Both the position numbers and the translations under genes were made by a program. Below the pieces are notes generated by a model that was not told where the DNA came from, made no database searches, and worked only from the letters and a program-made list of their open reading frames with translations. Source: Nereocystis luetkeana (taxonomy: Eukaryota; Sar; Phaeophyceae; Laminariales; Laminariaceae). From it: a DNA stretch of 64,000 bases. Shown piece after piece: positions 12,101-58,900 of this stretch. The stretch lies in NCBI GenBank assembly GCA_031213475.1, contig JARUPZ010000011.1, positions 682,001 to 746,000 on the forward strand, read 5' to 3'. The number at the start of each line of letters is the position of its first letter. Position 1 is the stretch's first letter.

Positions 12101-15100
12101 AGATCCAACCCAGGAAACTTGCGTTGTAGATGATGCAGACTTTACCGCTACCACCCGGGGACATGACCAAGATTGTACAAGACCGGCAACATATCTGCCT
12201 TGAAGGGTCTAAATGAGGACGTCGTTATCGATTGTCTGTCCGAGATGTTCAATGCTGTGAAGCGTAGCATCGAGAGCCCAAATGTCGTAGGAACGTCCTC
12301 AGCTGCGATGGTTGCAACGGCTGCAACGGCTGCAATGGTTGACGAGCCCAGTTAGCGAGGAATTATCAATGCTTGGGATCAAAATTGCAAACCCTAGTAA
12401 TAGTTGCAATCCCTACAGTACTAATTGCAGCCCCTACAGTACTATTGATAGTTGCGACCCCTACAGTACTATTTGCAACCCCTACAGTACTATTTGCAAC
12501 CCCTACAGTATTATTTGCAACCCCTACCGTACTATTTGCAACCCCCACAGTACTATTTGCAACCCCTGCATTACTATTTTCAACCCCTAGTGTACTATTA
12601 CTATTTGCAGCCCCTCCTGTAGCACGGCTCCGCACCCTTATGAAACCTTGTGTATATACGTGCTTCACGAAACTCTACTCTCGAGTCTGGTCGTCGTTGA
12701 TACCCACGCCGAACGATTTAGCTGTACACGCTCGCGTCGCTTGTCGACCAGTGATGTCCCACTATATATATAAATATATATACATAACCACGTTGCTGTG
12801 GTGAGCGTAAGTTTTTCGTTTTTTTTCCCGATCAGCCGGAGGATTAAAACACATGAAATAAAATCCATGCTCTCCATCAGGGATGCACGGCTAAAAAACA
12901 GAACGACACCACACTTCTAAGAAGGCCATAATATGGAAACACTAACCAGCGGCGTGGGAGTTATGGGCGAATTTACTAAGTATTTTTTCTGTCAAGTGTT
13001 TTCTTGGGTTTAGTAACCCCCGCCCCTCCAATTTAAATCAATTAATTGAGGCTGTCATCCTTATATGCAAGAAAATCCGCCTCAAAAGTGGTTCTTGGCA
13101 GGATGCAGCTCACCCTTTATGCGACCCGCCCAACACCTCACGGCGCTTCGCGCTTGGTGCAAGCAATGTCTGCTTGGTCGGTGAAAACCCGACATGCTCC
13201 GTCCCGGCATTGTAGGGATGCGAGGGTCTATTGCCATACGACTACGGTCATGCATGAAATCGAGTACATCTCTCCTATCGAGTACACCCCCCCCCCCCCC
13301 CCCCCCCCCTTGCCTGGGTCTCCATAATGGGTCGTGGCGTGTCGGTTTTTTTCCCCGGTGCACTCCTGTTTCGGTGTTGGCTATGACAAGTAACGATAAG
13401 CAATACATGCGGTAAACCACTGCTTCGATACAGACTCCCGTTGGTCAGGAGGAACCCACATTCACCATGCCCAGAAGCAGACGATCTTCCCATCAACCTA
13501 TCGATGGCCAGCGCTGAGTGAGTACCATAGAGTAGTGTTATTATCCCTTCTAACTCTCTACAACTATGGGTAGAAACACAAGGACCGTTTGGACATGAAT
13601 GAAGACCAATCGGCTCTTAAATCTGTGTCCAAGGTGGCGAGTGGCAAGTATTACTGTTATGAATACCCACCATTATCGCCCGATGGTTGAAATTCTCTAC
13701 AAGTACCTTGGTGACGATGATTGAAATGCTCAAAAATAGGATGCCACCCCGGGGCACACGGGGTCGATTAGGGTACCTCCGGACATGTCCCAGTGATGAT
13801 GCGATCGTACTCGATGTGCTTACGTACAATTGTTTTAGTAGCTCCATAACCTCTTTTGTCGCGAGGTATTCCTACACCTCGTGCCGGTGCTTTCTACGAG
13901 CGTCGTTTCTGTTTTCCCGTATACGCCGTTTTTCAGCTTGTGCTTCGAGCATGAACATGTCAAGGACTTCAAAGCAAGCGGAATAGTCTGGGACTATCTA
14001 CCACACGCGGCAGCTCGATGGCGTGCTCGGTATCATGCTTACATAGGTCCGCGGACCAAAGACGATAGTATGGCTGTCGCCAGGGTTTCCAACGCAGCAG
14101 AATAGTTGTAGATGTCGTCAACTTTGTGCGTTGGGAGGTTTTGTTCAAATACGAAAGTCACCACTCCTGCTTCGGAGGCTATATCGCGATTGGTCGTAGG
14201 GTTTTAGCTTCGGCGATCTCCAAAGAGATAGTGCGCCTTGTGTTTGGCACCCGTGGAAATTTGAAACTCGCATTCGTTCGTAAGAACTTTCTGCATCGCG
14301 GATAACGCCAAGCCGGGGGAAGGGCACCGTTTGGCCGGCTCTTGTAGTATGCCACGAAACTCTGTCCCGCCCGGCAGCGGGCAGCTCTACGTACGGGCAA
14401 AGAACTTGTCTCATGTTGTGGGTACCGCGTCCCTCTGATGCCGCGTATTCGTTTTGCCGTGATTCTCTTATTATCCTTTCTTTTTTTTTCAGAAGCCAAG
14501 TTCGACCCTTTCAGGCAAATCGTGACTGCGCGGGTGAGGTTCGAGGTGAACCCTGTCTACCCCCCGGAGGGGTCTCCTGAGGCGACGAAACAGGCGTGGA
14601 TGCAGATGACCCCCAAGGACAGACGCAAGGCATTCATGCTGCAGGAGGTGGAGAGGTGCACGGCCTTAACCACGGTGAGTGAATAAGAGAGGAAGGGAGG
14701 AAGGGAGGGACCTAACTCGTCTAGTATAGCATGCGCCACCGTGGGCGAAACAAGAGTTCTGCATATTGGCGCCTTGCATCCCAACTCGTCCCTCCCGGCA
14801 TATGCCCCATTCGGGACGACGCCGTAGGCAAGGGATGTTGCATGTTGGCATCTTGTATCTCAGCTCGCCCCGCCCCGGATGCGTCGCGTTGGTTGGGACA
14901 AACTCGTGGGTGAAGCGAGAGTGCTGCATGTTGGGCATACTGCAACCCAACTCGTCCCTCACTGCACGTGGTGCCTTTGTGGCGAAGCTGCGGGTACGGG
15001 AGTGTTGCATGCTGTAATGTTTGCTTCTCACGGACTGTGCTAACCCCATTATTTGCTGGAGGACTTGCATGGACCTTTATATCTACTGCCGTATTTGGTT

Positions 15101-27100: not shown

Positions 27101-30100
27101 ACAAGATGTGAGTCGTGCATGCATGCGTGCGCTCGTCGGGTTTGTCGCTGCACGGCGGGAGTGGCGCGGACGGCAGCTATTGCAGCCACAAGCGCGCTTT
27201 TCTTCGGCGCTCCACGTCCAGACTGTCGCCCTTCTCTCCCAGGGGGATCTATCTCTCTATCCCGTGCGGTGTTTGTTTGTATCTGAGAGGTTGCTCTCCA
27301 GTTTACCCCCTGAAGATTCCTTGAACTCAGACAGATAGATGATCGATTACGATTTGATCATCTAGCCCTTTTCTGGGTAGATGATCTGTATGATCTAACT
27401 TACGTTGCCGGGTGGGAGCTGTGTAATGATGTGCATGATCTATTTATTGTAGCGGGACATGCCTCCTACAGTAGGTCGGATCTATACGATACAGATCCTG
27501 CACCGCACGCCAGAACGGCCGGTGAGGATCTAGATGATCTAGATGATGCAGATGGTCTAGCGTTGGTTCAGCAGTACAGGGGGGCGTTGGCGTTGTGAGC
27601 GAGGTCGTCACGACGGCAACAATGGTGATGACGATGAGGATGATGACGAGGGGTTCATCTCGCGCAGATATAGGGTCGCCTGTCCGTTGCTGTTGAGGCG
27701 GACCTACCGTAGTGACTCCATCACCGCGGTAGTGATCGTTCTCTTCGTCTCATCCTCACTATCATCCTTATCGTCCTTGTCCTTATCGTTTTCATTTTCA
27801 CCCTCATCATGCCGTGCCTTGCCTTGCCGTACCCTTGCCTATGCCTTGCCTTACCTTGTCTTGCCTTGCCTTGCCTTGCGGTACCCTTGCCTTTGCCTTA
27901 CCTTGCCTTGATTTGCTTTACCTCGCCTTGCCTTGCCTTTCCTTGCCTTGCCTTGCCTTGCCTTGCCTTGCCTTGCCTTGCCTTGCCTTGCCTTGCCTCG
28001 CCTTTGCTTAGATGGACCTCGGAACAAGACATGGCGCTGATCACGGCTGTTCGAAGGTTCCAGCCCAACCCTACGTCAGTACCTGCACTGCTCGCGCACA
28101 TGTCGAATGACAGAGGCCTCCCAGAAGTACAGATACAATGCGCTGGGAAACGTTGCGGCAGTTGGGGTTAATGGAACCGCGTCGAGGCTAGTCAAGAAGA
28201 TGTTTCATTTTCATCTCTCGGTACCTGATTCGGCTTTGGGGTGCAATCTGACAGCACATTTCAAGCACGGTGGCGGCGCAAACGCAGTCTAAAGCCTAAC
28301 CCTACCCTGACCGCTCAAAGTGCTCATCACATCACATCACATCACAGCACAGTACATCACAGCACAGTACAACATACTGTAGTAGTTGCACGCATGCACC
28401 CTTGGATTCTGCCCACTCGATAAATCTGTTGGACTTCACCGCCCCTTTTATGACGCACCGCCACCCGTCGCCGGTTTTTTGTTCGACACCTGCTACAGGG
28501 GCGTGAAGCCACCGGCTTTTGCAATGTTGGCAATGCTTGGTTTGGTCACACAAAGAACAGAACAACTACGAGTATTACTATCTACATCCTCGACCAAAGT
28601 ACATAGGCCCTATATCGGCAGCTATGGTGGCCGTATGCTGTGCAGGATTTGTATATTTTGTTGAGATCCAACACGGAAGATGTGCAGATTGCACGGATTT
28701 TGGTATCACGTGTTACCATCCAATGTGTGCTTTTGAATACCTGAGGGGTGCATACCTAAGGAATACCGGCTTTTCTCTAGTCGCCTCTAGAGGGTCTGTC
28801 CTACGCTCCACATTCGTACTGACCAGCGACACTTTTTTTTTTCTCGCTGGGTCAGTCATCCCAAACGAACGCAACTAGTTAGGGTGCCTTCCAATAAATC
28901 ACCACTCGTGGTATTTGTCAATTGGCGTTACAATACATCACATTAAACAACAAATTCCCGATTTGTTGGCAAGAATCGCGACATCATTTGTTTCTTGAGT
29001 TTTTTCGAGTGCAAACAAAATTACACGTGATTCGTGACTAAGGTCACGATTCGCGAAAATCTCACGTTTTTTTGTTGGGTTGTCGCGACTCGTCACTATT
29101 CTTTCGTTCGTTCGTTTGTTTGTTACGAGTGTCCCCAATGTGCAAGGTAAGTCTACCAATCATCCTGTGTGCTGTGTACCACGCGGCTCTCACCCTGCGC
29201 TGTTCCCTCCTCGCTCCGCTGCTGTCGCATGCTGTAAACGATACCCACGTCACCCCTGTTTCTTCATGGTGTCAGCTACTCCAATACCAAGCCGGTACGA
29301 CCAGGCGCTGGCCGGGAAGAGTCTGTCAGCACGGTGCGGCACGCCCTTCGCCCTGTGGCCGAGTGGGTGGGAAAAACACCGGACGCCTGCTGGAAGCGCT
29401 ACAAAAAGCTTGCCAAAGCCCAGGCGAGATACGCAGGCGAGTTCGGGATAAAGGACGCCCCTGGCTGTGCTTAGTCAATGGCGTTGCCTTCAGCTGTGGC
29501 TGTGGATGTTGCTTTGGCACCATGCTTCTCGTGGGTTGTTTCTGTACTATGTTTCGTGCTGCGACCGGTAGAACATCACTCGTGTCATGCTCGGTGGAAT
29601 AACTACGTCCGGCTCTCGTTAGACACGCAGGGCGCTACCAGTACGCGTAGCTAGGTAGGGAGCGACTGCAGGCGGTAGACCATGTGCTGTAGGCTGATTG
29701 TGCTCCCAAAGCTGATGTTCCTGGTTCCCCGTAGGTTGAATTGGTTCGCTTCCGCTAATATCATCGGCCAGACACGGAAATGCATCGTCGCCCATCAACT
29801 CGCCCGAAGTGCTTCCGACAAATGGTAGAGTCGTACGTAGAGTGGTAAGAGTCTAGTGCGCTCAGAAGCAAAACCATACGGAAACAGCAACGCACAATAG
29901 CGCCACACGGTTGTTATTCATCGGCTGATTATGTTCTGGTCTGGCCAAGTCTGGCAAGCGCTACAATGGTAGTTTGGAAGTAATTTGGAGAGAGACGCGT
30001 TTAGGAAAGTGCGACGCACATTACCTCCACGCTACCGATGCTTTCGCCTGAGTTGACGTATCGTAGCGCTACCTGCCCCTTACCCTAAGGCCGGACTTAA

Positions 30101-33100
30101 CCTGGCCTAGTCTCATCTAGGCCGACTCCTTCAGCAACTCGGCTTCCCGTTCTAACCGCGCTTCTCGGTGCATTTACCCCAACAACAACAGCAACAACAG
30201 ATCAGTACCCCCCCCGCCCTTTTGGCCAATTCATCCGAAGCTTTCATCCATTGTAAACCCGCCTCACTGGAGGTCCTTGACACGATGCAGCTCAACCTTC
30301 ATGACGCAGCTCGCCTAACACCTCACGGCGCTTCGCGCCTGATTCAAGGAAAGGCGGCCTGGTCGGTGAAGACCCGACGTGCTCAGCCCCGGCATCGTAC
30401 GTAATGGTGCGAGGGAGGGTCTATGGTTATACGACTACGGCCATGCATGACATGGCATGAGTACCCCCCTCCCCCCGTTTTTGTCGATGCGGTTGTTGTT
30501 GCTTCTGGAGCAGAACACGGAGCAGCACTACCCTTGCCGATGGTGTCGGGAAAGCGCGGGAGGCCTTCTGTGAAGCCGAAAGGAGTGAAGCGCCCATTGG
30601 AGGGGGGCGGGGGCACCTCTGTTCGGAAGAGGAAGCCGAGGCACACCGGCCTGCTTGCGAGAGACGGCCCCCTCATCGTTGCGTGAGTACTAAAATTGAA
30701 AAGGTTTAAACCCTTTTGAGACTGTTACGACTGCAGTCCCGTTTTGGCGATAAACCAGTAAAATTTTACGTAGTTTGTCCCCAAGACGGGACTGCAGTAC
30801 TGCAAGGGTTAAAACCCTTTAGTGTAAGGCTGCACGCCCATTTCGGGGATGAATTACTTGAAATTGGACTCAGGTATATGTTCTTCTTTTGTTTTCGTGC
30901 GGTGCAGTATTGAAAGGAGTTAACCCGCTAGCGATGACGCACCCTATATCTGGCATGGAATTCCTAGCCGACTTTCTCCAGAACGAGAACAGGGGGGGAG
31001 CACACACGACCAAGTCGGCTGGTTTGGAAATATTTCGTCGAGAGCTTTCCATTGTAGACGTCTCATCTCGGTGTTTGCACTATCCTGATTGTGGAGACAA
31101 TCAACTGATCGTCCGATGGGATGTGTCATCATATCGGTTATCACCCTTGTTTTACGGTATTAGAGTAGCCTTCTAGGGCCGTTGTGTGACATTGCCTGCC
31201 ATTATGTGATGGTTGTTGAACGGGAATCGATTTCACGGGTGTATTTGGATAAGACACGTACATACGAAACACAAGCATCGACGCCATTTCGGTAGTTGTC
31301 GAGCGGGAATCGATTTGGAGGATGGGTTTCGATAAGACACCGACAAGCGGAAAACATAGATCGAAACCGAATCGACGCCTTTTCGATAGTCGTTTCGCCG
31401 ATTTATTTCGTTCGGTATAGGCATTTTCAGCCTAGGGGTGCCGGGGGCGGCAGGAGACATTAGTTACCACACTCGTACGATATATCGAAAATTCGGTGTT
31501 TCGGTGATCACGTGTGTATCGATATATTGTCCTGAGCGCCTTTCTACCGCTGCGCCCCGTATGATTGGTATCCTGCCCATGGTCAGTATATCGTGTACCA
31601 GGTAGCTTGCAAGATTGCTGTAGCAGAGCCAGGACGGGCCCAAGCGCCGCAGTAGAGCGGGCGCAGTAGAGCACGTACCTGCGTATGTGTGGGCCGATAC
31701 CACAGCTATAGGTTGAGGGAAGAGGACCTGATGATCGTTATAGCACGATGACTTGATGTGTCTCGTTCACCCCATGATAAAATCGAATAATTGGTACGCG
31801 AAGACAAATGCGATGTCGCTCGTCCTGTGCCAATGCAGCAGAGCCACTAGATGAAGCTAGACGGCGCAAGCAAGGAAAGGTAGACGAGGTATGGGTCATT
31901 CTCTGAGAAGGCGGCCGAAGAACTGAGGTTGATGTCCATCCAAGAAAATGGACTACTGTAGCAAATATCTAAATATATGTGTTACACGGAATATGCGGTG
32001 CATCCTAATCCAAATGCGGTGCAACCTCGACCAGTGAGCTTCAACACGTGTGGATGATAGCTTGAAGCGTAATACCTGACACCCGTCGCATTGGTTTCCG
32101 TTGCGCCGATGTGCGTTGGACCCATCCATGTTCGATATACTTCGGCGACTAACGTTATATTTTCATGTTGTGCTTTTTTAAAAGAGGTACGGACCCTGGA
32201 ATATTCAAAACGAGCGACCTCGACGAGGAGAGGACGCGAGCGAGGGAAGAGGCTGCCATAGCCAAGGCAGCGGGGTTCGAGTGGGTCAATGTAAGTGCTT
32301 TGTTTTTCACCAAGGGGCTCACGGTGAACGGTGAACAGTGAACCGGTGTCAACGCTCCCAGGAGCACAACGTGCGTGCAGTGATTCTTGCCATGCTGTAC
32401 TTTTAGGGCGGTCAAAATATGCAGAAGGGCGCTCGCCTATCGCCTTATCATTGATGTTGATGTTGTTGCCGAAGTTTAAGTTGGTGTTACTGCCCGTCCC
32501 ACGTAGATAACGGGCGTTTTATGTACGTTGTTGGCGTTGGAGTTGAAGCCTAATTTGATGTTTCTGGTCGTCCCATGTTGATGTTTTGCAGGAGGAGGGT
32601 TCGTGGGATGAGGATGGGCGAGGGGGGGGAGTTCTTCCTCGCTCGTTCGGCGCGTGGGGCTGGACCATCGAGGAGCTGGCGGCTTTCACGGCGGTCCGAC
32701 AGCTGATGCTTGTGCCAGAACGCGACTTCAACCCGGTATGGAAACCACCGCCCACGATGGCACGGAGTCGCGGTTTTGTTTTGTTCGGACTTGCCTGCTA
32801 TTAAAACATATTAGCGTATAAGACGCCATACTGCAGACACAGTGCACTGCAGTATTTCCAGCCGTCTTGAATTGTGCGTTCATCGTAAGGAACTTGAAAA
32901 AGTTATTCATAGTCTATACTGGTAGCGTACAAGTACAGTATTAAATAGTACTCTTGGGCAGTTGAGTGAAACATCGTCGCAGGAAGTTTGATTATTTGGG
33001 CGTGCCAGAGGCTTTAAACTCAGTGCCTAGTTGCTGATCAGGTATAGTAGGTCGGGCGGGGACTGGCTTGTGCGTGCAGGGTCTAGCCCGTGCTGCCCTT

Positions 33101-36100
33101 TTGTGGTACGTAGGAAAAGGAACGGGGAGCGCTCTCCTGCGCTGAAATTACAGCTCGCAGCAGACTGCCCTAATATGTGGCGTCGTCGCATTCATGGCGT
33201 CATCAGGTTGAAGCGGAGTAAGTGCCTCGGAAAGCGCAGCGTTCCGACCCTACTATGACGGGGGGCCATACTAAATAGGACCTACGGTACACACAAAAAC
33301 CTAGATATTTACCTATTTTTGCTAACAATATTTGCTCTTATTTACTATGCTCCCCCGTAATATTACTACGTTACTATAATACTGAGGGGAAGTAGTAGTC
33401 AGTACGTAGTCAGAACCGAATACTGGTTATAACCATTTGGGGATGCGTGTGTCTTTTCGGTTCAATGTGGGCGATGATTACTGTGGACGCCCATAACATT
33501 TTTTTTCTTTTCGAAAATCATAGTTTTTACTTTCTACCTTAACTCGTAGGAGGCTTTACCCTCGCCGATTTTCTTCTGGACAAGCGGTGGTCACAGGTGC
33601 CGCCCCTTCTACCCCCCGGTACGTACGTGCCTTTATTTTCGTCGCGTGTGTTGTTCATTCGGCATTCCCGCTGGTCGTCGCTAGTATTCGGCTGTAGCTA
33701 ACTCACGCTCTCGCGCTTTCCGCGGGTCAATTTTGATGCAAGAAAAAGTTGTTGCGAGTATACACTCGATGATACTCGAACCCACTAAGTTGATCTTAGT
33801 GGGCACGAGGACGACCTACCAAGCCACCGGGAACGCCGCAGTGCGACGCTGAAGTTGCCATTCTCTCCGACACATTTGTTTCAACGCGCCATACATGCGG
33901 TATGCCATACATGCGGTATGCCATACATGCGGTATGCCATACATGCGGTATGCCATACATGCGGTATGCCATACATGCGGTATGCCATACATGCGGTATG
34001 CCATACATGCGGTATGCCATACATGCGGTATGCCATACATGCGGTATGCCATACATGCGGTATGCCATACATGCGGTATGCCATACATGCGGTATGCCAT
34101 ACATGCGGTATGCCATACATGCGGTATGCCATACATGCGGTATGCCATACATGCGGTATGCCATACATGCGGTATGCCATACATGCGGTATGCCATACAT
34201 GCGGTATGCCATACATGCGGTATGCCATACATGCGGTATGCCATACATGCGGTATGCCATACATGCGGTATGCCATACATGCGGTATGCCATACATGCGG
34301 TATGCCATACATGCGGTATGCCATACATGCGGTATGCCATACATGCGGTATGCCATACATGCGGTATGCCATACATGCGGTATGCCATACATGCGGTATG
34401 CCATACATGCGGTATGCCATACATGCGGTATGCCATACATGCGGTATGCCATACATGCGGTATGCCATACATGCGGTATGCCATACATGCGGTATGCCAT
34501 ACATGCGGTATGCCATACATGCGGTATGCCATACATGCGGTATGCCATACATGCGGTATGCCATACATGCGGTATGCCATACATGCGGTATGCCATACAT
34601 GCGGTATGCCATACATGCGGTATGCCATACATGCGGTATGCCATACATGCGGTATGCCATACATGCGGTATGCCATACATGCGGTATGCCATACATGCGG
34701 TATGCCATACATGCGGTATGCCATACATGCGGTATGCCATACATGCGGTATGCCATACATGCGGTATGCCATACATGCGGTATGCCATACATGCGGTATG
34801 CCATACATGCGGTATGCCATACATGCGGTATGCCATACATGCGGTATGCCATACATGCGGTATGCCATACATGCGGTATGCCATACATGCGGTATGCCAT
34901 ACATGCGGTATGCCATACATGCGGTATGCCATACATGCGGTATGCCATACATGCGGTATGCCATACATGCGGTATGCCATACATGCGGTATGCCATACAT
35001 GCGGTATGCCATACATGCGGTATGCCATACATGCGGTATGCCATACATGCGGTATGCCATACATGCGGTATGCCATACATGCGGTATGCCATACATGCGG
35101 TATGCCATACATGCGGTATGCCATACATGCGGTATGCCATACATGCGGTATGCCATACATGCGGTATGCCATACATGCGGTATGCCATACATGCGGTATG
35201 CCATACATGCGGTATGCCATACATGCGGTATGCCATACATGCGGTATGCCATACATGCGGTATGCCATACATGCGGTATGCCATACATGCGGTATGCCAT
35301 ACATGCGGTATGCCATACATGCGGTATGCCATACATGCGGTATGCCATACATGCGGTATGCCATACATGCGGTATGCCATACATGCGGTATGCCATACAT
35401 GCGGTATGCCATACATGCGGTATGCCATACATGCGGTATGCCATACATGCGGTATGCCATACATGCGGTATGCCATACATGCGGTATGCCATACATGCGG
35501 TATGCCATACATGCGGTATGCCATACATGCGGTATGCCATACATGCGGTATGCCATACATGCGGTATGCCATACATGCGGTATGCCATACATGCGGTATG
35601 CCATACATGCGGTATGCCATACATGCGGTATGCCATACATGCGGTATGCCATACATGCGGTATGCCATACATGCGGTATGCCATACATGCGGTATGCCAT
35701 ACATGCGGTATGCCATACATGCGGTATGCCATACATGCGGTATGCCATACATGCGGTATGCCATACATGCGGTATGCCATACATGCGGTATGCCATACAT
35801 GCGGTATGCCATACATGCGGTATGCCATACATGCGGTATGCCATACATGCGGTATGCCATACATGCGGTATGCCATACATGCGGTATGCCATACATGCGG
35901 TATGCCATACATGCGGTATGCCATACATGCGGTATGCCATACATGCGGTATGCCATACATGCGGTATGCCATACATGCGGTATGCCATACATGCGGTATG
36001 CCATACATGCGGTATGCCATACATGCGGTATGCCATACATGCGGTATGCCATACATGCGGTATGCCATACATGCGGTATGCCATACATGCGGTATGCCAT

Positions 36101-39100
36101 ACATGCGGTATGCCATACATGCGGTATGCCATACATGCGGTATGCCATACATGCGGTATGCCATACATGCGGTATGCCATACATGCGGTATGCCATACAT
36201 GCGGTATGCCATACATGCGGTATGCCATACATGCGGTATGCCATACATGCGGTATGCCATACATGCGGTATGCCATACATGCGGTATGCCATACATGCGG
36301 TATGCCATACATGCGGTATGCCATACATGCGGTATGCCATACATGCGGTATGCCATACATGCGGTATGCCATACATGCGGTATGCCATACATGCGGTATG
36401 CCATACATGCGGTATGCCATACATGCGGTATGCCATACATGCGGTATGCCATACATGCGGTATGCCATACATGCGGTATGCCATACATGCGGTATGCCAT
36501 ACATGCGGTATGCCATACATGCGGTATGCCATACATGCGGTATGCCATACATGCGGTATGCCATACATGCGGTATGCCATACATGCGGTATGCCATACAT
36601 GCGGTATGCCATACATGCGGTATGCCATACATGCGGTATGCCATACATGCGGTATGCCATACATGCGGTATGCCATACATGCGGTATGCCATACATGCGG
36701 TATGCCATACATGCGGTATGCCATACATGCGGTATGCCATACATGCGGTATGCCATACATGCGGTATGCCATACATGCGGTATGCCATACATGCGGTATG
36801 CCATACATGCGGTATGCCATACATGCGGTATGCCATACATGCGGTATGCCATACATGCGGTATGCCATACATGCGGTATGCCATACATGCGGTATGCCAT
36901 ACATGCGGTATGCCATACATGCGGTATGCCATACATGCGGTATGCCATACATGCGGTATGCCATACATGCGGTATGCCATACATGCGGTATGCCATACAT
37001 GCGGTATGCCATACATGCGGTATGCCATACATGCGGTATGCCATACATGCGGTATGCCATACATGCGGTATGCCATACATGCGGTATGCCATACATGCGG
37101 TATGCCATACATGCGGTATGCCATACATGCGGTATGCCATACATGCGGTATGCCATACATGCGGTATGCCATACATGCGGTATGCCATACATGCGGTATG
37201 CCATACATGCGGTATGCCATACATGCGGTATGCCATACATGCGGTATGCCATACATGCGGTATGCCATACATGCGGTATGCCATACATGCGGTATGCCAT
37301 ACATGCGGTATGCCATACATGCGGTATGCCATACATGCGGTATGCCATACATGCGGTATGCCATACATGCGGTATGCCATACATGCGGTATGCCATACAT
37401 GCGGTATGCCATACATGCGGTATGCCATACATGCGGTATGCCATACATGCGGTATGCCATACATGCGGTATGCCATACATGCGGTATGCCATACATGCGG
37501 TATGCCATACATGCGGTATGCCATACATGCGGTATGCCATACATGCGGTATGCCATACATGCGGTATGCCATACATGCGGTATGCCATACATGCGGTATG
37601 CCATACATGCGGTATGCCATACATGCGGTATGCCATACATGCGGTATGCCATACATGCGGTATGCCATACATGCGGTATGCCATACATGCGGTATGCCAT
37701 ACATGCGGTATGCCATACATGCGGTATGCCATACATGCGGTATGCCATACATGCGGTATGCCATACATGCGGTATGCCATACATGCGGTATGCCATACAT
37801 GCGGTATGCCATACATGCGGTATGCCATACATGCGGTATGCCATACATGCGGTATGCCATACATGCGGTATGCCATACATGCGGTATGCCATACATGCGG
37901 TATGCCATACATGCGGTATGCCATACATGCGGTATGCCATACATGCGGTATGCCATACATGCGGTATGCCATACATGCGGTATGCCATACATGCGGTATG
38001 CCATACATGCGGTATGCCATACATGCGGTATGCCATACATGCGGTATGCCATACATGCGGTATGCCATACATGCGGTATGCCATACATGCGGTATGCCAT
38101 ACATGCGGTATGCCATACATGCGGTATGCCATACATGCGGTATGCCATACATGCGGTATGCCATACATGCGGTATGCCATACATGCGGTATGCCATACAT
38201 GCGGTATGCCATACATGCGGTATGCCATACATGCGGTATGCCATACATGCGGTATGCCATACATGCGGTATGCCATACATGCGGTATGCCATACATGCGG
38301 TATGCCATACATGCGGTATGCCATACATGCGGTATGCCATACATGCGGTATGCCATACATGCGGTATGCCATACATGCGGTATGCCATACATGCGGTATG
38401 CCATACATGCGGTATGCCATACATGCGGTATGCCATACATGCGGTATGCCATACATGCGGTATGCCATACATGCGGTATGCCATACATGCGGTATGCCAT
38501 ACATGCGGTATGCCATACATGCGGTATGCCATACATGCGGTATGCCATACATGCGGTATGCCATACATGCGGTATGCCATACATGCGGTATGCCATACAT
38601 GCGGTATGCCATACATGCGGTATGCCATACATGCGGTATGCCATACATGCGGTATGCCATACATGCGGTATGCCATACATGCGGTATGCCATACATGCGG
38701 TATGCCATACATGCGGTATGCCATACATGCGGTATGCCATACATGCGGTATGCCATACATGCGGTATGCCATACATGCGGTATGCCATACATGCGGTATG
38801 CCATACATGCGGTATGCCATACATGCGGTATGCCATACATGCGGTATGCCATACATGCGGTATGCCATACATGCGGTATGCCATACATGCGGTATGCCAT
38901 ACATGCGGTATGCCATACATGCGGTATGCCATACATGCGGTATGCCATACATGCGGTATGCCATACATGCGGTATGCCATACATGCGGTATGCCATACAT
39001 GCGGTATGCCATACATGCGGTATGCCATACATGCGGTATGCCATACATGCGGTATGCCATACATGCGGTATGCCATACATGCGGTATGCCATACATGCGG

Positions 39101-42100
39101 TATGCCATACATGCGGTATGCCATACATGCGGTATGCCATACATGCGGTATGCCATACATGCGGTATGCCATACATGCGGTATGCCATACATGCGGTATG
39201 CCATACATGCGGTATGCCATACATGCGGTATGCCATACATGCGGTATGCCATACATGCGGTATGCCATACATGCGGTATGCCATACATGCGGTATGCCAT
39301 ACATGCGGTATGCCATACATGCGGTATGCCATACATGCGGTATGCCATACATGCGGTATGCCATACATGCGGTATGCCATACATGCGGTATGCCATACAT
39401 GCGGTATGCCATACATGCGGTATGCCATACATGCGGTATGCCATACATGCGGTATGCCATACATGCGGTATGCCATACATGCGGTATGCCATACATGCGG
39501 TATGCCATACATGCGGTATGCCATACATGCGGTATGCCATACATGCGGTATGCCATACATGCGGTATGCCATACATGCGGTATGCCATACATGCGGTATG
39601 CCATACATGCGGTATGCCATACATGCGGTATGCCATACATGCGGTATGCCATACATGCGGTATGCCATACATGCGGTATGCCATACATGCGGTATGCCAT
39701 ACATGCGGTATGCCATACATGCGGTATGCCATACATGCGGTATGCCATACATGCGGTATGCCATACATGCGGTATGCCATACATGCGGTATGCCATACAT
39801 GCGGTATGCCATACATGCGGTATGCCATACATGCGGTATGCCATACATGCGGTATGCCATACATGCGGTATGCCATACATGCGGTATGCCATACATGCGG
39901 TATGCCATACATGCGGTATGCCATACATGCGGTATGCCATACATGCGGTATGCCATACATGCGGTATGCCATACATGCGGTATGCCATACATGCGGTATG
40001 CCATACATGCGGTATGCCATACATGCGGTATGCCATACATGCGGTATGCCATACATGCGGTATGCCATACATGCGGTATGCCATACATGCGGTATGCCAT
40101 ACATGCGGTATGCCATACATGCGGTATGCCATACATGCGGTATGCCATACATGCGGTATGCCATACATGCGGTATGCCATACATGCGGTATGCCATACAT
40201 GCGGTATGCCATACATGCGGTATGCCATACATGCGGTATGCCATACATGCGGTATGCCATACATGCGGTATGCCATACATGCGGTATGCCATACATGCGG
40301 TATGCCATACATGCGGTATGCCATACATGCGGTATGCCATACATGCGGTATGCCATACATGCGGTATGCCATACATGCGGTATGCCATACATGCGGTATG
40401 CCATACATGCGGTATGCCATACATGCGGTATGCCATACATGCGGTATGCCATACATGCGGTATGCCATACATGCGGTATGCCATACATGCGGTATGCCAT
40501 ACATGCGGTATGCCATACATGCGGTATGCCATACATGCGGTATGCCATACATGCGGTATGCCATACATGCGGTATGCCATACATGCGGTATGCCATACAT
40601 GCGGTATGCCATACATGCGGTATGCCATACATGCGGTATGCCATACATGCGGTATGCCATACATGCGGTATGCCATACATGCGGTATGCCATACATGCGG
40701 TATGCCATACATGCGGTATGCCATACATGCGGTATGCCATACATGCGGTATGCCATACATGCGGTATGCCATACATGCGGTATGCCATACATGCGGTATG
40801 CCATACATGCGGTATGCCATACATGCGGTATGCCATACATGCGGTATGCCATACATGCGGTATGCCATACATGCGGTATGCCATACATGCGGTATGCCAT
40901 ACATGCGGTATGCCATACATGCGGTATGCCATACATGCGGTATGCCATACATGCGGTATGCCATACATGCGGTATGCCATACATGCGGTATGCCATACAT
41001 GCGGTATGCCATACATGCGGTATGCCATACATGCGGTATGCCATACATGCGGTATGCCATACATGCGGTATGCCATACATGCGGTATGCCATACATGCGG
41101 TATGCCATACATGCGGTATGCCATACATGCGGTATGCCATACATGCGGTATGCCATACATGCGGTATGCCATACATGCGGTATGCCATACATGCGGTATG
41201 CCATACATGCGGTATGCCATACATGCGGTATGCCATACATGCGGTATGCCATACATGCGGTATGCCATACATGCGGTATGCCATACATGCGGTACGCAGG
41301 GTTCGGTTAATCCTGCTGTTGGTCGAGTGCGCGAGTGTACCTTCTTACCTCATGAGCCTATCCCGAACTCTGTCCCCGAGGGGTAAGCCTGTTACGGGGG
41401 AGCATAGTAATACAAATTGTAGTGATACATAGTAATACATAGCGATACGTATATACATAGCAATAGATCGTAATACATACTGTAGTAACAACATAGCATA
41501 ATAGTGCATAGTAATACATAGCAACACATAGCACTACACATAGTAATACGTACCTACTCTGTAGTGTTCAGAACCCACGAGGGACAAAATTCATGATGTT
41601 TCCCCATATGTTTACACAGCATATTTTGTTCTGGTTACTATTACGGGGGACCATATTAAATACCTGGTAGGACCTACGGTAAACACAAAAACATATATGT
41701 ACCTATTTTTACCAACAATATGTGGTTCTATTTACTATGGCCCCCGTAATATGATATGGTCCCCCGTGATAATAGGGTTACAGTAGTAGTATTACTGTAG
41801 TACCATTTGTACTACTGCTGTAGTACTGTAGGCCCTAACTCTGTATACACGTTGTTCTCTTTATGGCTACTGCTGTAACATACATCGCCCTGGTGCAGTG
41901 GTGCCCTCGAAGGAATGCCGCTGTTACTGTTACTGTTATTAATAATAGAGTTCATTCATTCGGTGGCTTCAAACCCCACCGTGGCGATAACTTGTTTGTT
42001 TTCAAAGATACAAGCATTACGGGGGACCATAGTACATAGGACCGAATAGTGCTCGTAAAAATAGGTAAATATACAGTTTTCCTGTGTACCTCAAGTCCTA

Positions 42101-45100
42101 TTTACTATGCCCCCCCGTAGCACTCGTAGTGAAGCAAAGAATCAGCTGCTGAGAGCGCGTACGTAGGGGGGTTAGGGTAAGGCGCAATGAATGAATGAAC
42201 GAATGAATGAAAGAGAGAATGAATTAAGAGGGAAGAACGGGCTGCATGCAGTCTCCTCGCGATAATGATGTCACTGAAGGCGCGAACAAGCCGTAGTGGG
42301 CAGGGGAGGGGAGAGGAGAGCCTGCCTGCCCTGCGACCCCGGATATTAGATACTATTGTTGTAGGAGGCAGAGAGAAACGAAGGGCAAAGATAAGAAGTG
42401 GGAAGAATAAAAACAAACATACATACCAAGTACATACATACATGGGTACATACGTACATAGATACATACATACACACATACATACAAACACACATACCTG
42501 GTACATACTAACATAAATACATACTGTAGACACATACACATATAATCACCCCTAGATCTGGTTGGGGAGTGCATCGTGGTTTGCAACCTATCGAGTTCTG
42601 CAAAAGTATCCGCCTCGCGGTTAGATACACGTCATAAGTACTGAGTGTTCGCTTCGTTTCGAGTGGGGTTCTGGCGCTATGCACATAGAGCTGTTGTTTA
42701 GCAAGCGTCGTGTTATGTGCTCTATGTCATTTCTGCCTCATCGCACGGCCGTCCCCGTCTCTTCTGATGTTGGTCGGTTTCCCTATGCCGGTGGCTACCC
42801 GCAGGAGGAAGCGTTAAACCGCATGAAGGCTTTTCGGCCACCGACACTCCAGAAGGCGTATCGCGCGCTGCTCTCTTTCAAGCAGATCGACATTGTGCAG
42901 GTATGGGATGGGATGGTGCGATAATGTCTATGGTCTATATGGTATTGCTGTTACAGCAGTAGCAACACTGCGCTCGCCCAGTCGGCTATGCCACACTCCC
43001 CAGAAAATTGTCGGCTCGCGTATCGAAAGATGCATATATCTGCCGCCCCATTACTATCTAATGTCTGTTGTAACCCGACGTTCATCTATCTGCCCAGTAT
43101 ACTTCCGACGTCGATCGCAAACTTCTGCGATGTGCCTGAACACGCACCGTGTCCTTGGCATAGGCTGACCATGCCGGGATTCGAACCGTCAGCGAAGAGA
43201 AGAGTCACGAACTTTTTCTGTCTGAATGTGCCAGAGTCTCGCGTGTAGCCGATTGTTGAGGTTGCACCCACTACTAACCGTTTTTTTCTTACAGTGGTGC
43301 AGCTGTTGTTCGTCTGCAGCGGGGTGCCCGTTTTAAGACCACCCTGTGATAAGCCCAAGAACGTGCTACTAATAGTATGCTATCTCGAAAAAAGTCTTAT
43401 CTTTTACTGCTGAGAAGATGATCGCAGACTGATCCCAAGTATTTTTTTCTCTTGACACGTCGATTCACCTGGTCTATGGCGTTAAACCGGGGGGTGTTAA
43501 AATTTTGAAATCGGTTGGTTCACCCCTAAATGCAATGTCCTTTATTGTCGTCGTGACGGCTGTTGTGCAGGTGGCGTGGGCAGCGAACGACTACTCTGTG
43601 CAGGACTGCATTGACCATGAGGTGTACAGCATCATCGGCAGACACGGGAGCAACATGGTGGCGAGGGGCATCATTGCCGCCGAAGCCTTCCACGCCTACG
43701 GCTTCGAACGTGAGATTATTCCTCTTTGCGGCATGCTTCGTTGATTGATTCTTGTTGCCTCCTTTTGAGGTAGAACTTTCATGGTCGTGGTTTTCGAAGA
43801 GTTGAGAGTTGAAATGTTTCGCTCGGCTTTTGCACAAAATATGAGAGAAACAAGAAAAATTATTTGAAAGTAGAGTAGTGTAGGACACGCCTTGCCTCGC
43901 ATAAGAACAAGGACATGGTACGAACGTAGTAATTAAAAAACATAATCAGAACACGGGAATAAGAACATGATACTAGGGCTACCAACATAATGCCAAGAAT
44001 GTAGTCGTGAGAACGTACGAATGAAAAATCACCTGGCAAGAAGAAATGAGAGCGCAATAAAAGAAACGTAAGAACTATAACATGGCAATGAAAACTTGAG
44101 ATCTGGCCCTTAATAAGAGTCTCTAAAGTGGTATCGCGTGCTGTGAGTTCGAACAGTTTTTGAACGCTTGGGACAGTTTTCAGAAGTTAGTCTTGGACAT
44201 GCCCAAACGGCACACTGGCCTACTGACTTGCTTGCTTTCACTTGAGCGGGTGACTTATTCTAGCATCAGCAGGCAGCGCTTGTCACGGCAGTATGCTTCC
44301 GGTAGGAGGGGCGCACGGTAGCTACACGCGGGTCTCACCGGCTTTTCTGGCTGCATTCATCTCTGGTGCCGAGACAGACCGATGGCGTCCCTTCCGACAA
44401 CTAGTCCTCCATCTTAGCCCAATCGTTCTTCAAGATGAAGCAGCAATCGCAATGTTTTTATTCTACTACGTAACCCTTTAACAACCGCTGGCTTTTCCTA
44501 CCCCAATTCCTGCTCTAATTATCTTATTTCAACTATTAATAATGTACAGTATGGAGTAAAAACGGGACTGCAGTGGTATCATAAAGGTATCCATGAAAAC
44601 GTTGTGTTAGAAATCGTGGCCTGTTGTGGTGTATTGCTTCTGTAAAGCAAATATTAATAGTAGCCTTAATAGCGCAGTTTGGTGTACCAGGTTTGTACTG
44701 TTCTAGTGTGTTGTCGCCGGTGTCGCTCCTTGAATGCTAGTTCGTGCTGACGTGTTGATCCGTCATCCCGCTCCTTGCCTTCCGCTGGTACTCCATTCGC
44801 TGGACAGCCGATCGTCTGAAGCCCCTTTTGGGGGTGGAGAGCGCGCATCACGGCAGCTTGGAGGGGTTGAGGCTTCAGCTTAAGCGCTTGTGCGGGTGAG
44901 CGAAGCCCAGGATTGCTAGTGGCATACTGATGGCATGCTTTTGCTTGTGCGCTTCACGAGAGAACGCTTTTCCAAGCATAAACTCCAACCTCTCGCAAAG
45001 ATGATTGTTTCCACTTGATCGTTCGCGAAGGGGCTGGTAGTGTTTTGAATGAGTTGCATTATTTTGTTTTGCCTTGTTTTTTTTTTTCAGGCGATGTAGA

Positions 45101-52265: not shown

Positions 52266-55122
52266 CGATGTAGCCGTGGTCACAGAGGTTTGGACCATCA
52301 TTAACAAAAGGCTCTACCAGGTATATATTACCATTAATACCAGGTTGTAGTTATTATTGGTAGTTGTTTTTTGTCCAGATAGGGAGGTACCCCCGCGGAG
52401 CGTTTCATTACTGCCAAGTATGAATTGCTAGGTAGTTTTTTCCGGCTCGATTTCTCTTTCTGGTCGTGTTGGTGATCGAATCGAATCGCTCGATTGGCAG
52501 TACTACAGGTGATACAAAACACTACCAGGTACTATTTATAGTCCTAGGTACGGCATACTCTCCTGTGTCTCGAATGCGAAACCCGCACAGGTTCGGGTGA
52601 TCGCCTCTTAGAAATGGCAAGTGTGGATATTCCTCTGTGTTACTCGCGTAAAAGTATATGCCATGGTATCGTACGGCTACGTGATGATTTTTCATGGGCA
52701 GTACGATAGCGCTAGAGCTCTACCACGATGTTGTGGTTGCTACGTCTACGTAGCCCAAACGGTCTGTTTGTGTCACGCCCAAACAGTGAAGGGAAAAACA
52801 TATTATCAAATACACCACGCGGGTCTTCGCCCTGTTGCCACCTCGTGCCATTAATGTCTTCTATCGTTTTGGCAGACCGACATTTTGTTTGCGGTACATA
52901 CAGTGTGATTTCATTCATAGAGGGACGATATTGCTCTATGCTAAAGACGAGGCTCATGGCCGGTGTTACACGGTGTTCGTTCGCAGTTTGCACTAATGCG
53001 TCTCCCCTTCTCCTCCTTGGTGTTACTGCTGCAGTGCATTGAATGATATTTCTCTTCCATGGGTTTTGTCTCTGAAGCGGTGGTGCAGTCCTAACGGTCC
53101 TACAGGGTACATAAGGTGTTTAAACGTTGGATTCCATCATGTCACATTTTCACAATTTCACATGGACGGGTGCTAATAACTCGATATTTAGAATGATAAT
53201 ACAATCGCAACCACTTACTTGCGTACAGTTCGTAGTGCTTTTTCTGAGTACCGACACCACTTTGCGTGTACTGCACTAACATGTCGTCGTCGCTCTGACT
53301 CGTATTTAACTCGTATCACTATACTTAGTACCACCAGGAATAGTTTGGTATTGGTGAGGCCTCTGTGCTGCGATCAGCCGCCGACTCTCACCCAGGGCTA
53401 TTGCCGTACCCCCGCAATGATTCGATGTCAATCAACGCGGCACCTCGTCGCAGCACAACGTACAACTCGTGCCACACAACACAAGCGACGAGAGAAATAT
53501 GATTGTACTCAATCGGAAAAAAATCGCGATAATCGGGGTCACATGTATTCATTCGTTGTAATACAAGAGGGGTCAGCAATCGGGTCCAAACGTATTCCGC
53601 TGAAACACAGGAAGTTGCCTGCTATTAGCGTCAGGTATTCAAGCCAAAGGGCGCTTCACATTTATTTTCTGGTTTTGAAATTTAGTAGTCCAGACGGAAA
53701 ATCTAAGAGATCGACTCTTAGGAATTTTGCGTTTGGACCTTCAAAACCTAGGGAATACGTCGTGCAGAGGATCATGATGCTGTCGCCGAGCACCTACTGT
53801 AGTACGGCAGTACTGCGAGCGCGGCACAGACCGCAACATCAGTCCTGCAGAAACAGAACAGCAAGTACGTGTGATCAGAGCGTGACAACGAAAGCAAGCA
53901 GACGAAGTTGGCGAGAGCCAGCTTGCCGTCGAGCATTTCCAGTTGCTGCGTTATTTGTATGACCGAAGAAAGACATACAAAAACCTGCCCGGCATTCAAA
54001 AATGTACAACAAGCACTCACAGCAAGCAGCTGGTCTCCTACTCCAAGGATTATTTTTGCCTGAACTTCCAATGTCAATATGATCCAACACTACTCTTTCT
54101 CTCCGTCCGTTTTATTCCGCAAACACCTTGCAACGTCCGGGTTGTTTCTATGAACAGTGTAGCATGGAGCTCTTGACAATCGCAAGTTACCAGTTCTCAC
54201 AAAAAAGCATGGACCTCTGTGTCCGCTTCAGCCAGTAATATGTTGTTCCATTTGTCCTCGCGAGCAAGCGTAGCGGGCGGCCGAAGCCGCTCGCGGAGCG
54301 AAGCGCCTTGTACTCAAGTTTATCATTTCCAAATTGCGCTCACCAACTTTGGTTGCATGACATGACGTCGGCACACATATTCTACATACAGTACCTGATG
54401 CCTGGTAACGATCAGCCCGAGAGCATATTTAGAAAAGGAAATGTCCAACGATGGAGTCGTTTGTTTAAAGAAGCTAAAGACTCGTCCATTTGCCGAGTCG
54501 CGCGTGTTTGTAACGCTTGAACACACCAACTCTGACCTCCGAATCAGTTCCTTCAAGGAAAGCAGACGATAAAAACCAAGCTCGGGGCGATCAATGCAAG
54601 TATAGGTCATAATCTGTGGTGTACCGACACTGCCGTAGGAGTGCCATGTCTGATAACACCAATCCCTTCGCTCAAGGCGCTCAAGCACCAGTCAGTACCA
54701 AACGGATTATACGGCAAACACTCGCGTCAGACGCTACCTACAGTAGTAATAATAGTAGCTGCTGCACCTACGGCAGCAGTAGCCGCACTACAGCACTAGA
54801 AGCTGTACTAGGCTACAGGAGTAGTAGCTCTACTAGCCTACAGCAGTACAGTAGTAGCTGCACTTCGTCGAGGGCTGAGCCGGTAAGGAGCGAATACGTC
54901 CTCCATCCACGGCTGCTGCTCCAGCCTGCGCCCAGCCGCGTGCACCCCCACAGGGCAACCGGAGCTTAACCTGAGTGTGCCCCATGGAGCCGTCTCAATC
55001 TGCTCGCCGTATCGACCGCACCGCAACAACAAGCAACAACTGCTACCACACCACAACCCACAAGTTTAGGAACGCGCACGATCTCTCCTCGTTCAGCCTG
55101 GGCGACTACCCAAGAACGAACT

Positions 55123-55953
55123 TCACCGGCGTCTGCCGTCCCTGCGGTCATCTCTACCCCCGCCCCCCCCCGCATGGCCTCTCCTGTCCCCCCCCCGGTC
55201 CCTCTCGCGCTCGCCCCTCCTTTCTCCATCGCCACGCCGGCCATCCCTGTCTCTGTCACGCTCCCCCCCTCTGTGGTCCCTCCCGTTCCTGTCATCGCGA
55301 TGGTCCCGCTCGCGATGGTCACGGTCACGATGATCACGGTCACGATGATCATGGTCACGATCACCTCTGACCCCGCCGTTGGTGCGACGGTCACCAACTT
55401 TATCGGATCTCTCGGCTCGACGTCCGCCCTCGCCATTCTTATCAGACTTCGCCTTTTCCCTCCGGCGGTCCTGGCTGTCTCCCTTAGACCGCACCGGCGA
55501 CCGCACGGGGGACCGCGCCGGGGACTGAACCGGAGACCGCTCCGGGGAACGCTCCGGTGAAGCTGACGGGGAAGAGTCTCGGGGCGGGGAGTCATCGGGA
55601 GGCGGCGGCGGGGGCGGCGGTGTATCACCGCCATCGAAGTCGTCCATGTCGATGTCGTCGTCGTCATCAGGGTGAGGGGAGGAAGGGGGCGGGGGCGGCG
55701 GGGTAGAAGACGCGTCTTCCTCCTCGCTGTCAGCGCTGTTGACGCTGCCCGGGCTGTTAGACCTTGCTGCCGACCCACCGTTTTGTTGCTGTTCTTTGTC
55801 GTCGCTCTCTTCGGCCACCGCTGGCTCTGGGTCGGGCTGCTTGGGGACGTCAGGGAGGAGCGCCTCTAGCCGGTCTCGCTGGCGGGAGCCGGGACCGAGG
55901 TTGGCGATGTACTTCGACAGTACTGTCCGCACGTGCCCCAGGCTCCAGCCGTG
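55123..55953 (-). CDS. CTNNBL1: CTNNBL1 terminal exon with long RS/RD-rich tail
   Basis: Acceptor cggcag, phase 0. HGWSLGHVRTVLSKYIANLG then RQRDRLEALLPDV complete the armadillo fold. The tail follows: acidic SADSEEEDASS, runs of Pro with DDDDDIDMDDFDGGD, SPERSPERSPVQSPARSPVR repeats, then HRDRDHRDRDHRERDHRDDR and a Gly/Arg end. Composition resembles SR-protein RS domains. Confidence 0.88.
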   Translation of the reverse strand, partial: HGWSLGHVRTVLSKYIANLGPGSRQRDRLEALLPDVPKQPDPEPAVAEESDDKEQQQNGGSAARSNSPGSVNSADSEEEDASSTPPPPPPSSPHPDDDDDIDMDDFDGGDTPPPPPPPPDDSPPRDSSPSASPERSPERSPVQSPARSPVRSPVRSKGDSQDRRREKAKSDKNGEGGRRAERSDKVGDRRTNGGVRGDRDHDHRDRDHRDRDHRERDHRDDRNGRDHRGGERDRDRDGRRGDGERRGERERDRGGDRRGHAGGGGGRDDRRDGRRR

Positions 55954-58900
55954 CTGCCGTGCCGTGGGATCAGCGCAAAACGATAAAATAGGCAAACCGC
56001 CAGGCCATGCAGGTTGACAGTAATTATCAGTTGGTACAACAGCAGTACCAGGGCAGGGGCTGGTGTTGGAGGTGTGGGTAGCGGACTCTGTTGCGTCTTG
56101 TGCGGACCATACAGTAGGATGACTCGCCTTCGCATACGTTTACTTCCATCAATATAAATAGTGGCATACCTGGTACGCTACAACACATATCGTACCAGTA
56201 CATATCTACAAGGATACCGCCTCGACAAGCCTCGCTTTGAAGACATTGATGCATCACGCAGCTTGCAAAGCCGATGAATGTTCGGCCGCGAGAACTCGCA
56301 GCTGATGTTGAATGGTTGAATACATCAAACTCTTGCGTGCCAATACAAACGGGGCATACACGCATACACACACCTGGTGCAGTTTCTCGGCCACCCTTTT
56401 CGCTACCGCCGAGCTGTGCGCTGCGGTGACCACCATGACGACCGCCAACCGCTGCTGCGTGTATGCGCCCGCTTCCTGCCTGCGGAACTCCAGGGTCTCG
56501 GCATCATCGTCGCTGTCCCCCTCTTCCTCGTCCCTCGCAGCTCTCAAGTTATCGTTAGCGTCGAATTGAAGCACCCTGTCATAATCGACGAGCCAACGGA
56601 GACAGTCCGTTGGCACCAGAAAAGTGCACCAGAACGAAATTGGGAGCGTAACGTGCATCGTGTGGGGGCGGGGGCGGGGGTGGGGGTGGCGTTAGGATAT
56701 GCAGGGGAGTGGGGGTTGTTTCAAGATTCGTCACCGTATTTATTCCGTGTGTCAAGATTAAACCAAGTGAATGGAGCAAATGCCCTGAAAACACAAAAAA
56801 AAATCTACCATACCATGGGTGCAGTATAAATGGTATTAACAATAGTATGTGCGACCGACGTGATGTATGTTAAGTTTCTGTTTGAAGAGCAGCTAGATAC
56901 CCTTCCGGTATGGCAGCAAACGAGGATAAAACAGCAAGCATCCTCAACTCATTCTCGGCTCCATCGGCGGGGTCCCCTCTACCCTCTATCGGCCGCTATC
57001 GGCCGCTGAGCGAATGGAAATGCCGAGCGATTGTAGCAACAAGTTCCGAAGTCGCCGTATAAAAACACGCCAAACGCAACCGATAAAACCAATCGGCTAT
57101 GATCTCCCTTTCCTCACTTGCCTGTCTGAATATTCCATGTAGAGGTCCATGACTCGGTCCACCTTTTCCATGCCGGCCTCGACAAACTTAGACACGAAAC
57201 GGCTCAGGCACTCGTGCTCCGGACGGTCCTCGAGATGCACCGCGAAACTGCCCCCGCATCAAAGACGAAATGACAGGTCGGACGAGAGAACACGGCCCGA
57301 AAGGTCAGCCGAAGAAAATACACTCTCAAGGACACCTGTAGCTCATCGTATCGATCTACCACCCAGCGATACCCTTCCGAAATGTCTGGCCTGCTGAAAT
57401 CCTGCTGCTACACGGACTCAAGCCAACTATTAACAACCGTCTTACGTACTGCAGCAGCAGGTAATACATGGGTGTGTATTAATATACCAGGTACTAATTA
57501 CCAGGGTATTAAAAAGAATACCTGGTAGTATGTATAGAAACAAACGCGTCAGCCAGCTACTGTAGAAAGACGCAGGACTCTGCAAAATACCGCACGCACT
57601 TGCCTACTGCACTATTATACCACTACTTCAAGTATTATAACATCTACCCAACCAATGCTGACAATGAACGAGTCGCCGGTTTTTAGTTTAGCCAGTATAA
57701 TTACTCTACTGTGTTGTAGGTAGTAGTAGTGAAGCCTGGTTATGGCCATCATCAACAACAACAACAACAACAACAACAACAAAGTAGTGAATGGTTAAAC
57801 GGACCTGGTGACGATGGAGATGGCGTGCTCTTCCAGGGCGTTTCTGTCGCCTTTGGCCTTCCGCTTCTGACAGCACAAGAAACAGAAGAAACGGCAGGCA
57901 GGAAAGCACACCGGCACAAAAACACACCCGTGCAACGAGACAAGACGAAAGACAACTACATCAGGCGTGGAGGGTCGGGGAGGGGAGTACATCGACAGGG
58001 GAGTACATCGACAATGCCCATCCATTGCCTTCAATTCGACGGACAAAAACACCCCGTCGGGTCCACCGCTACTACACGTGGACGAGCACGTACTGCAAAT
58101 GCTGCATTAAATGTCACCGCCCGTCCGTGAGGTATTTGGGTGACAAAGAAGTTTGGTGGCACTAGAGTAGTTATGTCTGAGTCCAATATCCATATAGGTA
58201 GGCATAACACAAACCCAGCACAACACAACACAACACAACAAGTTGCATATTATCCTTGTATTCTCCTGTTGCTTGTATTATCCTGGAATATATTCCAGAC
58301 AGTCGCTTTCTGTCCTTCTATACTACAGCACTATTAATAGGACCTGGTGGTGCTTTTGGGTCGACGGCATAACAACATACCAAGCTAGATACAAAACAGA
58401 ACAAAACACCGAACCACAAGACAACGCACCGCACCAAATAACACCGATACCATTAATATGCCAAATACACCAGTACGTGCTTCGCGCTTCGAATTTAGTG
58501 GTAATTTGATGATTCGGCGTGTGCAAGGCTCCCTTATCACCTTCTGGCGCAGCTTGCGAGCGGCGCCCCTTCCCATGAAGACCGGCAGGACTGCCTTCAG
58601 CCCACCGACCTCAACCAGCCTGAAAACCCGCACGGCAGCAGCAGCAGCAACGACAGTAACAACAACAACGACAGTAACAGCAGCAACAGCCCCAATCGTT
58701 AGGGGTGGATATCTATTACGGGGGACCATATTATATAGGACCTACGGTAAACACAAAAAACTATATATTTCCCTATTTTTACTAACAATATTCGGTCCTC
58801 TTTACTATGGTCCCCCGTAATAGTGAAACAGTTAACAAGCGTCCGGCTCCATCAAAGCCGTTATCTGCTGCCAAAGCCGCAGCACCAACCACGCAACCGT

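Follow-up and report, generated by a model that had tools for sequence, protein, structure and literature searches.

How the genome of the brown alga Nereocystis luetkeana came to hold more than 7 kb of one 16-bp sequence, repeated without a variant inside what appears to be a gene, and whether the array does anything there, are the questions raised by this locus. In the window, by which the whole stretch of 64,000 nucleotides analysed is meant, the array was delimited by Tandem Repeats Finder and by an exact scan as follows:

33888..41294, no strand assigned: perfect array of GCCATACATGCGGTAT, 462.9 copies, the final copy one base short

Tandem Repeats Finder returned a period of 16, 100% matches, 0% indels and a score of 14814, and the exact scan recovered a single uninterrupted run of 7,407 bp with zero variants. 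The extent of about 463 units given in the first-pass annotation was thereby found to be exact to the base, and its remark that no variant copy could be seen was borne out. Both the array and its purity are read directly from the DNA. The runner-up among the 39 Tandem Repeats Finder rows in the window scored 294, which makes the 16-bp array a local outlier, and chance does not account for a perfect array so long. Minisatellites, or VNTRs, are defined in the account of PMC6857246 by head-to-tail units longer than 6 bp, and a period of 16 with 462.9 copies places the array among them; striking as it is in length and purity, it most likely belongs to a well-known kind. The preferred reading, to which a probability of about 0.8 was assigned, is that of a young or still unstable minisatellite in a plus-strand intron of about 10 kb, which would be spliced out and for which no function is evident. 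Under this reading the 16-bp unit would either have been amplified recently to about 463 copies, by slippage, by unequal exchange or in one amplification, or stay uniform through unequal exchange or slippage at high frequency. The array would be carried in the pre-mRNA and then removed with the intron, and its length would be expected to vary between individuals.

The splice context of the array is likewise present in the DNA itself. Exons and splice sites were chosen by eye from open frames, and phases were counted on the translated frames, giving the following putative features:

..32290, plus strand: end of an earlier putative exon, with a clear donor GTAAGT and phase 0 at its end
32592..32735, plus strand: putative upstream exon of 48 codons, phase 0-0, donor GTATGG, from splice sites and open frame
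32736..42804, plus strand: putative intron of 10,069 bp with GT-AG borders, from donor GTATGG to acceptor ACCCGCAG, both in phase 0
42805..42900, plus strand: putative downstream exon of 32 codons, phase 0-0, followed by GTATGG, from splice sites and open frame
43571..43709, plus strand: putative exon that follows, starting in phase 0, from splice sites and open frame

When 32592-32735, 42805-42900 and the sequence from 43571 onward were joined, the translation ran without a stop. The array therefore appears to sit inside an intron of about 10 kb in a plus-strand gene, to which these exons would jointly belong, in agreement with the intronic position proposed earlier, as the phase-consistent exons on both sides and the GT-AG borders suggest. 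It would begin 1,152 bp past the donor, end 1,510 bp short of the acceptor and make up 74% of the putative intron (7,407 of 10,069 bp). Just to the right of the array lies a second, much less regular repeat, with no evident relation to the 16-bp unit:

41420..41549, no strand assigned: degenerate 10-bp repeat TAGTAATACA, 63% matches by Tandem Repeats Finder

These flanks also bear on whether the array is real as assembled. Assembly errors are known to arise from tandem repeats (PMC6868369), and a consensus drawn over interchangeable units would produce zero variants in 463 copies, so that a real array of another length or purity might have been mis-sized or homogenised by consensus polishing. 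Against this, the array is bordered by non-array sequence and lies in a coherent phase-0 intron between two putative exons, which makes it improbable that unrelated loci were joined; the window holds zero N over the 64 kb scanned; and, as the longest run of identical bases in the unit is two, homopolymer read errors would be unlikely to scar it. Such an artefact, which would be compatible with a young or unstable minisatellite at this site, is thus regarded as fairly unlikely.

The edges of the array are abrupt. On the left, CAACGC is followed by a complete unit, and on the right the unit minus its last base is followed by CGCAGG, which leaves a short sequence in common between the two junctions:

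33884..33887, no strand assigned: ACGC adjoining the left end of the array, recurring at 41294-41297

The presence of ACGC at both junctions is possibly, and only weakly, indicative of a 4-bp target duplication or of microhomology. Together with the abrupt edges and with the lack of any unit copy with up to three mismatches outside the array between 17779 and 49777, it would suit a member of a dispersed satellite family that was inserted in one event as a ready-made array (for instance a rolling-circle product, perhaps through a circular intermediate), with ACGC as the target duplication and with too little time elapsed for variants to arise. This origin is considered improbable, for no further exact copy of the unit, in any rotation or on either strand, was found in the other 56.6 kb of the window, and a 4-bp repeat at the junctions would arise by chance about once in 50 cases by a hand estimate. 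If such a mobile, pre-amplified satellite were nevertheless the true source, satellite seeding would have been caught here at its start.

The unit was also sought elsewhere, in four collections that contain few eukaryotic nuclear genomes or none and are not expected to include the present one, and in a paper library, all of which provide weak tests. An exact 32-base pattern of the unit, which would miss variant arrays, gave zero matches in viral_contigs and zero in genome_contigs, and a BLAST search with four unit copies gave zero plasmid or phage matches, a result that a simple-repeat filter may blunt. In print, zero PMC papers were retrieved with three plus-strand and two minus-strand rotations of the 32 possible strings, sequences being often placed in figures or supplements. 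Within the window, the closest relative of the unit was found at 13400-13415 (GCAATACATGCGGTAA), two mismatches away and with 12 bases exactly shared. Six overlapping 16-base windows lay within two mismatches of the unit, all of them at 13397-13419, and none of three mononucleotide shuffles had any. The sole 12-base match to the unit in the flanks (ATACATGCGGTA, at 13403) belongs to the same site, and since 15 of 200 dinucleotide shuffles contained at least one such match, the site was treated as a chance resemblance and not as the seed of the array.

The composition of the unit was examined next to the properties claimed for it. It contains four of each base (50% GC), one CG, as had been stated, and one CATG, which gives 463 of each in the array; all 463 CpG are intact. 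The first-pass annotation had pointed to the lack of stops on both strands, and the array is indeed stop-free in six of six frames. The open frames follow from a stop-free unit with a length not divisible by three: as the remainder is one, the three frames of each strand give the same 16-residue peptide shifted in phase. When the unit was permuted 100,000 times, 33% of the resulting 16-mers lacked stops on one strand and 11.8% lacked them on both. The idea that the array encodes a repetitive protein of about 2,500 residues, for which the six open frames might be invoked, was rejected and is given next to no credence, as the frames of a strand encode one and the same peptide, the freedom from stops is at the level of chance (about 12% of such 16-mers) and the array lies within a putative intron with in-phase exons on either side.

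The claim that the transcript could fold on itself fared less well. The CATAC and GTATG arms on which it was based are present in every unit, but they are ordinary: among 30,000 permuted 16-mers, 41% had at least as many self-complementary positions as the unit and 33% had a paired run as long. When a 256-base piece of the array was folded as RNA, its energy was -115.8 kcal/mol vs a mean of -121.9 for dinucleotide shuffles (z = +1.21), 180 of 200 shuffles being at least as stable, and the same piece folded as DNA gave z = +6.26, none of the 200 shuffles being less stable than it. Neither the lack of stops nor the degree of self-complementarity exceeds what a 16-mer of such composition would show by chance, and stops, dyad symmetry and folding gave no indication that the unit is under selection. 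The idea of a structured RNA repeat or of special folding was rejected, the 256-base piece being less stable than the shuffle mean both as RNA and as DNA. A broader functional proposal, in which the array would act as a repeated protein-binding site or as an RNA structure formed by the transcribed intron, draws on the probable intronic position and on the two arms in each unit; it is held to be very improbable in view of the ordinary self-complementarity, of the fold energies and of the zero Rfam matches at gathering thresholds in the window. The window also yielded no tRNA genes with ARAGORN under bacterial settings. A telomere-type repeat was considered as well and rejected, the array being flanked on both sides by non-array sequence and by putative in-phase exons. 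GC skew and AT skew were both 0.000 in six 2-kb windows wholly within the array, with no telomere-like strand asymmetry.

The remaining question is what kind of history the purity of the array would imply. Recent expansion or active homogenisation had been proposed, which is reasonable, but homogenisation by the assembly consensus stands beside them as a third possibility. Zero differences in 7,407 bp correspond to at most about 4e-4 substitutions per site (95%), assuming no homogenisation. Turnover was explored with a toy model in which sister arrays undergo unequal exchange, with assumed blocks of up to 40 units, assumed lengths of 300-650 units and one run per rate; each rate counts the exchange attempts, including those then discarded, for every array-wide substitution, and a snapshot was called perfect when all units were identical to the majority unit. 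At 10 attempts per substitution, 0 of 899 snapshots were perfect, followed by 3.2% of 899 at 100 attempts, 82% of 2,249 at 1,000 attempts and 98% of 5,999 at 10,000 attempts. In terms of this model, the observed purity would need either a burst or strong turnover, in the order of 1000 attempts to one substitution. The model would thus accommodate a recent burst as well as a highly unstable array, but not an old array with slow turnover. Variants had been expected to persist at the edges, but at 1,000 attempts 10% of snapshots had a variant among the outer 20 units; as variants were not kept at the edges of the modelled arrays at high rates, the sharp edges of the array were dropped as evidence for a single burst.

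Arrays of comparable kind have been described in other organisms, the nearest being expanded minisatellites. One of these, the human ABCA7 VNTR, is intronic. As described in PMC6857246, it has a GC-rich 25-bp unit with frequent substitutions and insertions, and its length ranges from about 300 to >10,000 bp, with up to about 400 units. The present array is a minisatellite of similar size, but with a unit of 16 bp, 50% GC and no variation among its copies (PMC6857246). Drosophila Y genes such as kl-3 have introns of megabase size that carry 5-bp units (AATAT, for example) and, according to PMC6508621, a dedicated expression programme. They resemble the present case in that satellite DNA lies within introns, where theirs is transcribed with the gene, and differ from it in scale, the present locus having a single 7.4-kb array in a putative intron, where its transcription is presumed (PMC6508621). 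In Meloidogyne hapla, a 16-nt repeat (CCCAAGGTTTAAAAGG) occurs at 17 scaffold ends, where it was regarded as telomeric, and one scaffold carries internal arrays of >300 copies in each direction (PMC12643312). The 16-nt unit and the long arrays are shared features, whereas the sequence of the unit is another one and the present array lies inside a putative gene and not at a scaffold end (PMC12643312).

A long, variant-free array with both flanks assembled could shed light on the origin of tandem repeats and on the rate of their turnover. Should reads confirm its purity, the locus would be a good one for direct measurement of repeat instability and would bear on the tolerance of a host gene to sudden growth of an intron. 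The array alone changes no concept. The earlier interpretation of the locus is partly supported, as its structure was mostly right and its meaning was overstated.

The overstatement extends to the host, which had been called a housekeeping gene. No decisive family match was obtained among the plus-strand pieces submitted, which were chosen by eye, and the designation is therefore unproven. The best Pfam match was Myb-like (E = 0.0005, below the cut-off), obtained with two hand-joined upstream pieces, and the best PDB match of the plus-strand pieces was a chain named FD15 (8ugc, E = 0.0018); the remaining plus-strand matches had E values of 0.021 or worse. The order of the exons, which we take to be winged-helix-like, one Myb-like domain and winged-helix-like again, recalls the largest subunit of TFIIIC. 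This identity is not claimed, having zero search support. The Myb-like (SANT) pieces of the presumed host gene lie at about 28010-28110 and 29350-29470 on the plus strand, and the first of them is directly preceded by an impure 5-bp TGCCT repeat (27810-28004, 38 copies, 80% matches).

Several other features were observed in the window. Five MITE-like elements, 104-129 bp long and bearing terminal inverted repeats of the type TTACGGGGGACCATAGTA, were located at 4807-4911, 33256-33360, 41641-41769, 42017-42120 and 58716-58820, three of the five falling within the putative intron of the array. The TTACGGGGGACCATAGTA-type motif had 12 matches at up to three mismatches vs 0.04 expected, two of which, at 20396 and 41392, were unpaired, and the terminal motif had zero exact matches in viral_contigs. 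On the minus strand, at about 55100-57300, pieces of a homologue of CTNNBL1 (beta-catenin-like protein 1) were recognised, with a match to PDB 4cb9 (E = 1.5e-5) for hand-typed, joined pieces and to Pfam PF08216 (E = 0.0061, below the cut-off) for one piece. The open frame at 55126-56139, which contains the last CTNNBL1 piece, continues into serine/proline/arginine-rich and aspartate/histidine-rich repeats. The window also contains a 21-bp repeat at 12385-12599 (82% matches over 10 copies) and, at 49335-49530, a 102-bp duplication (88% matches).
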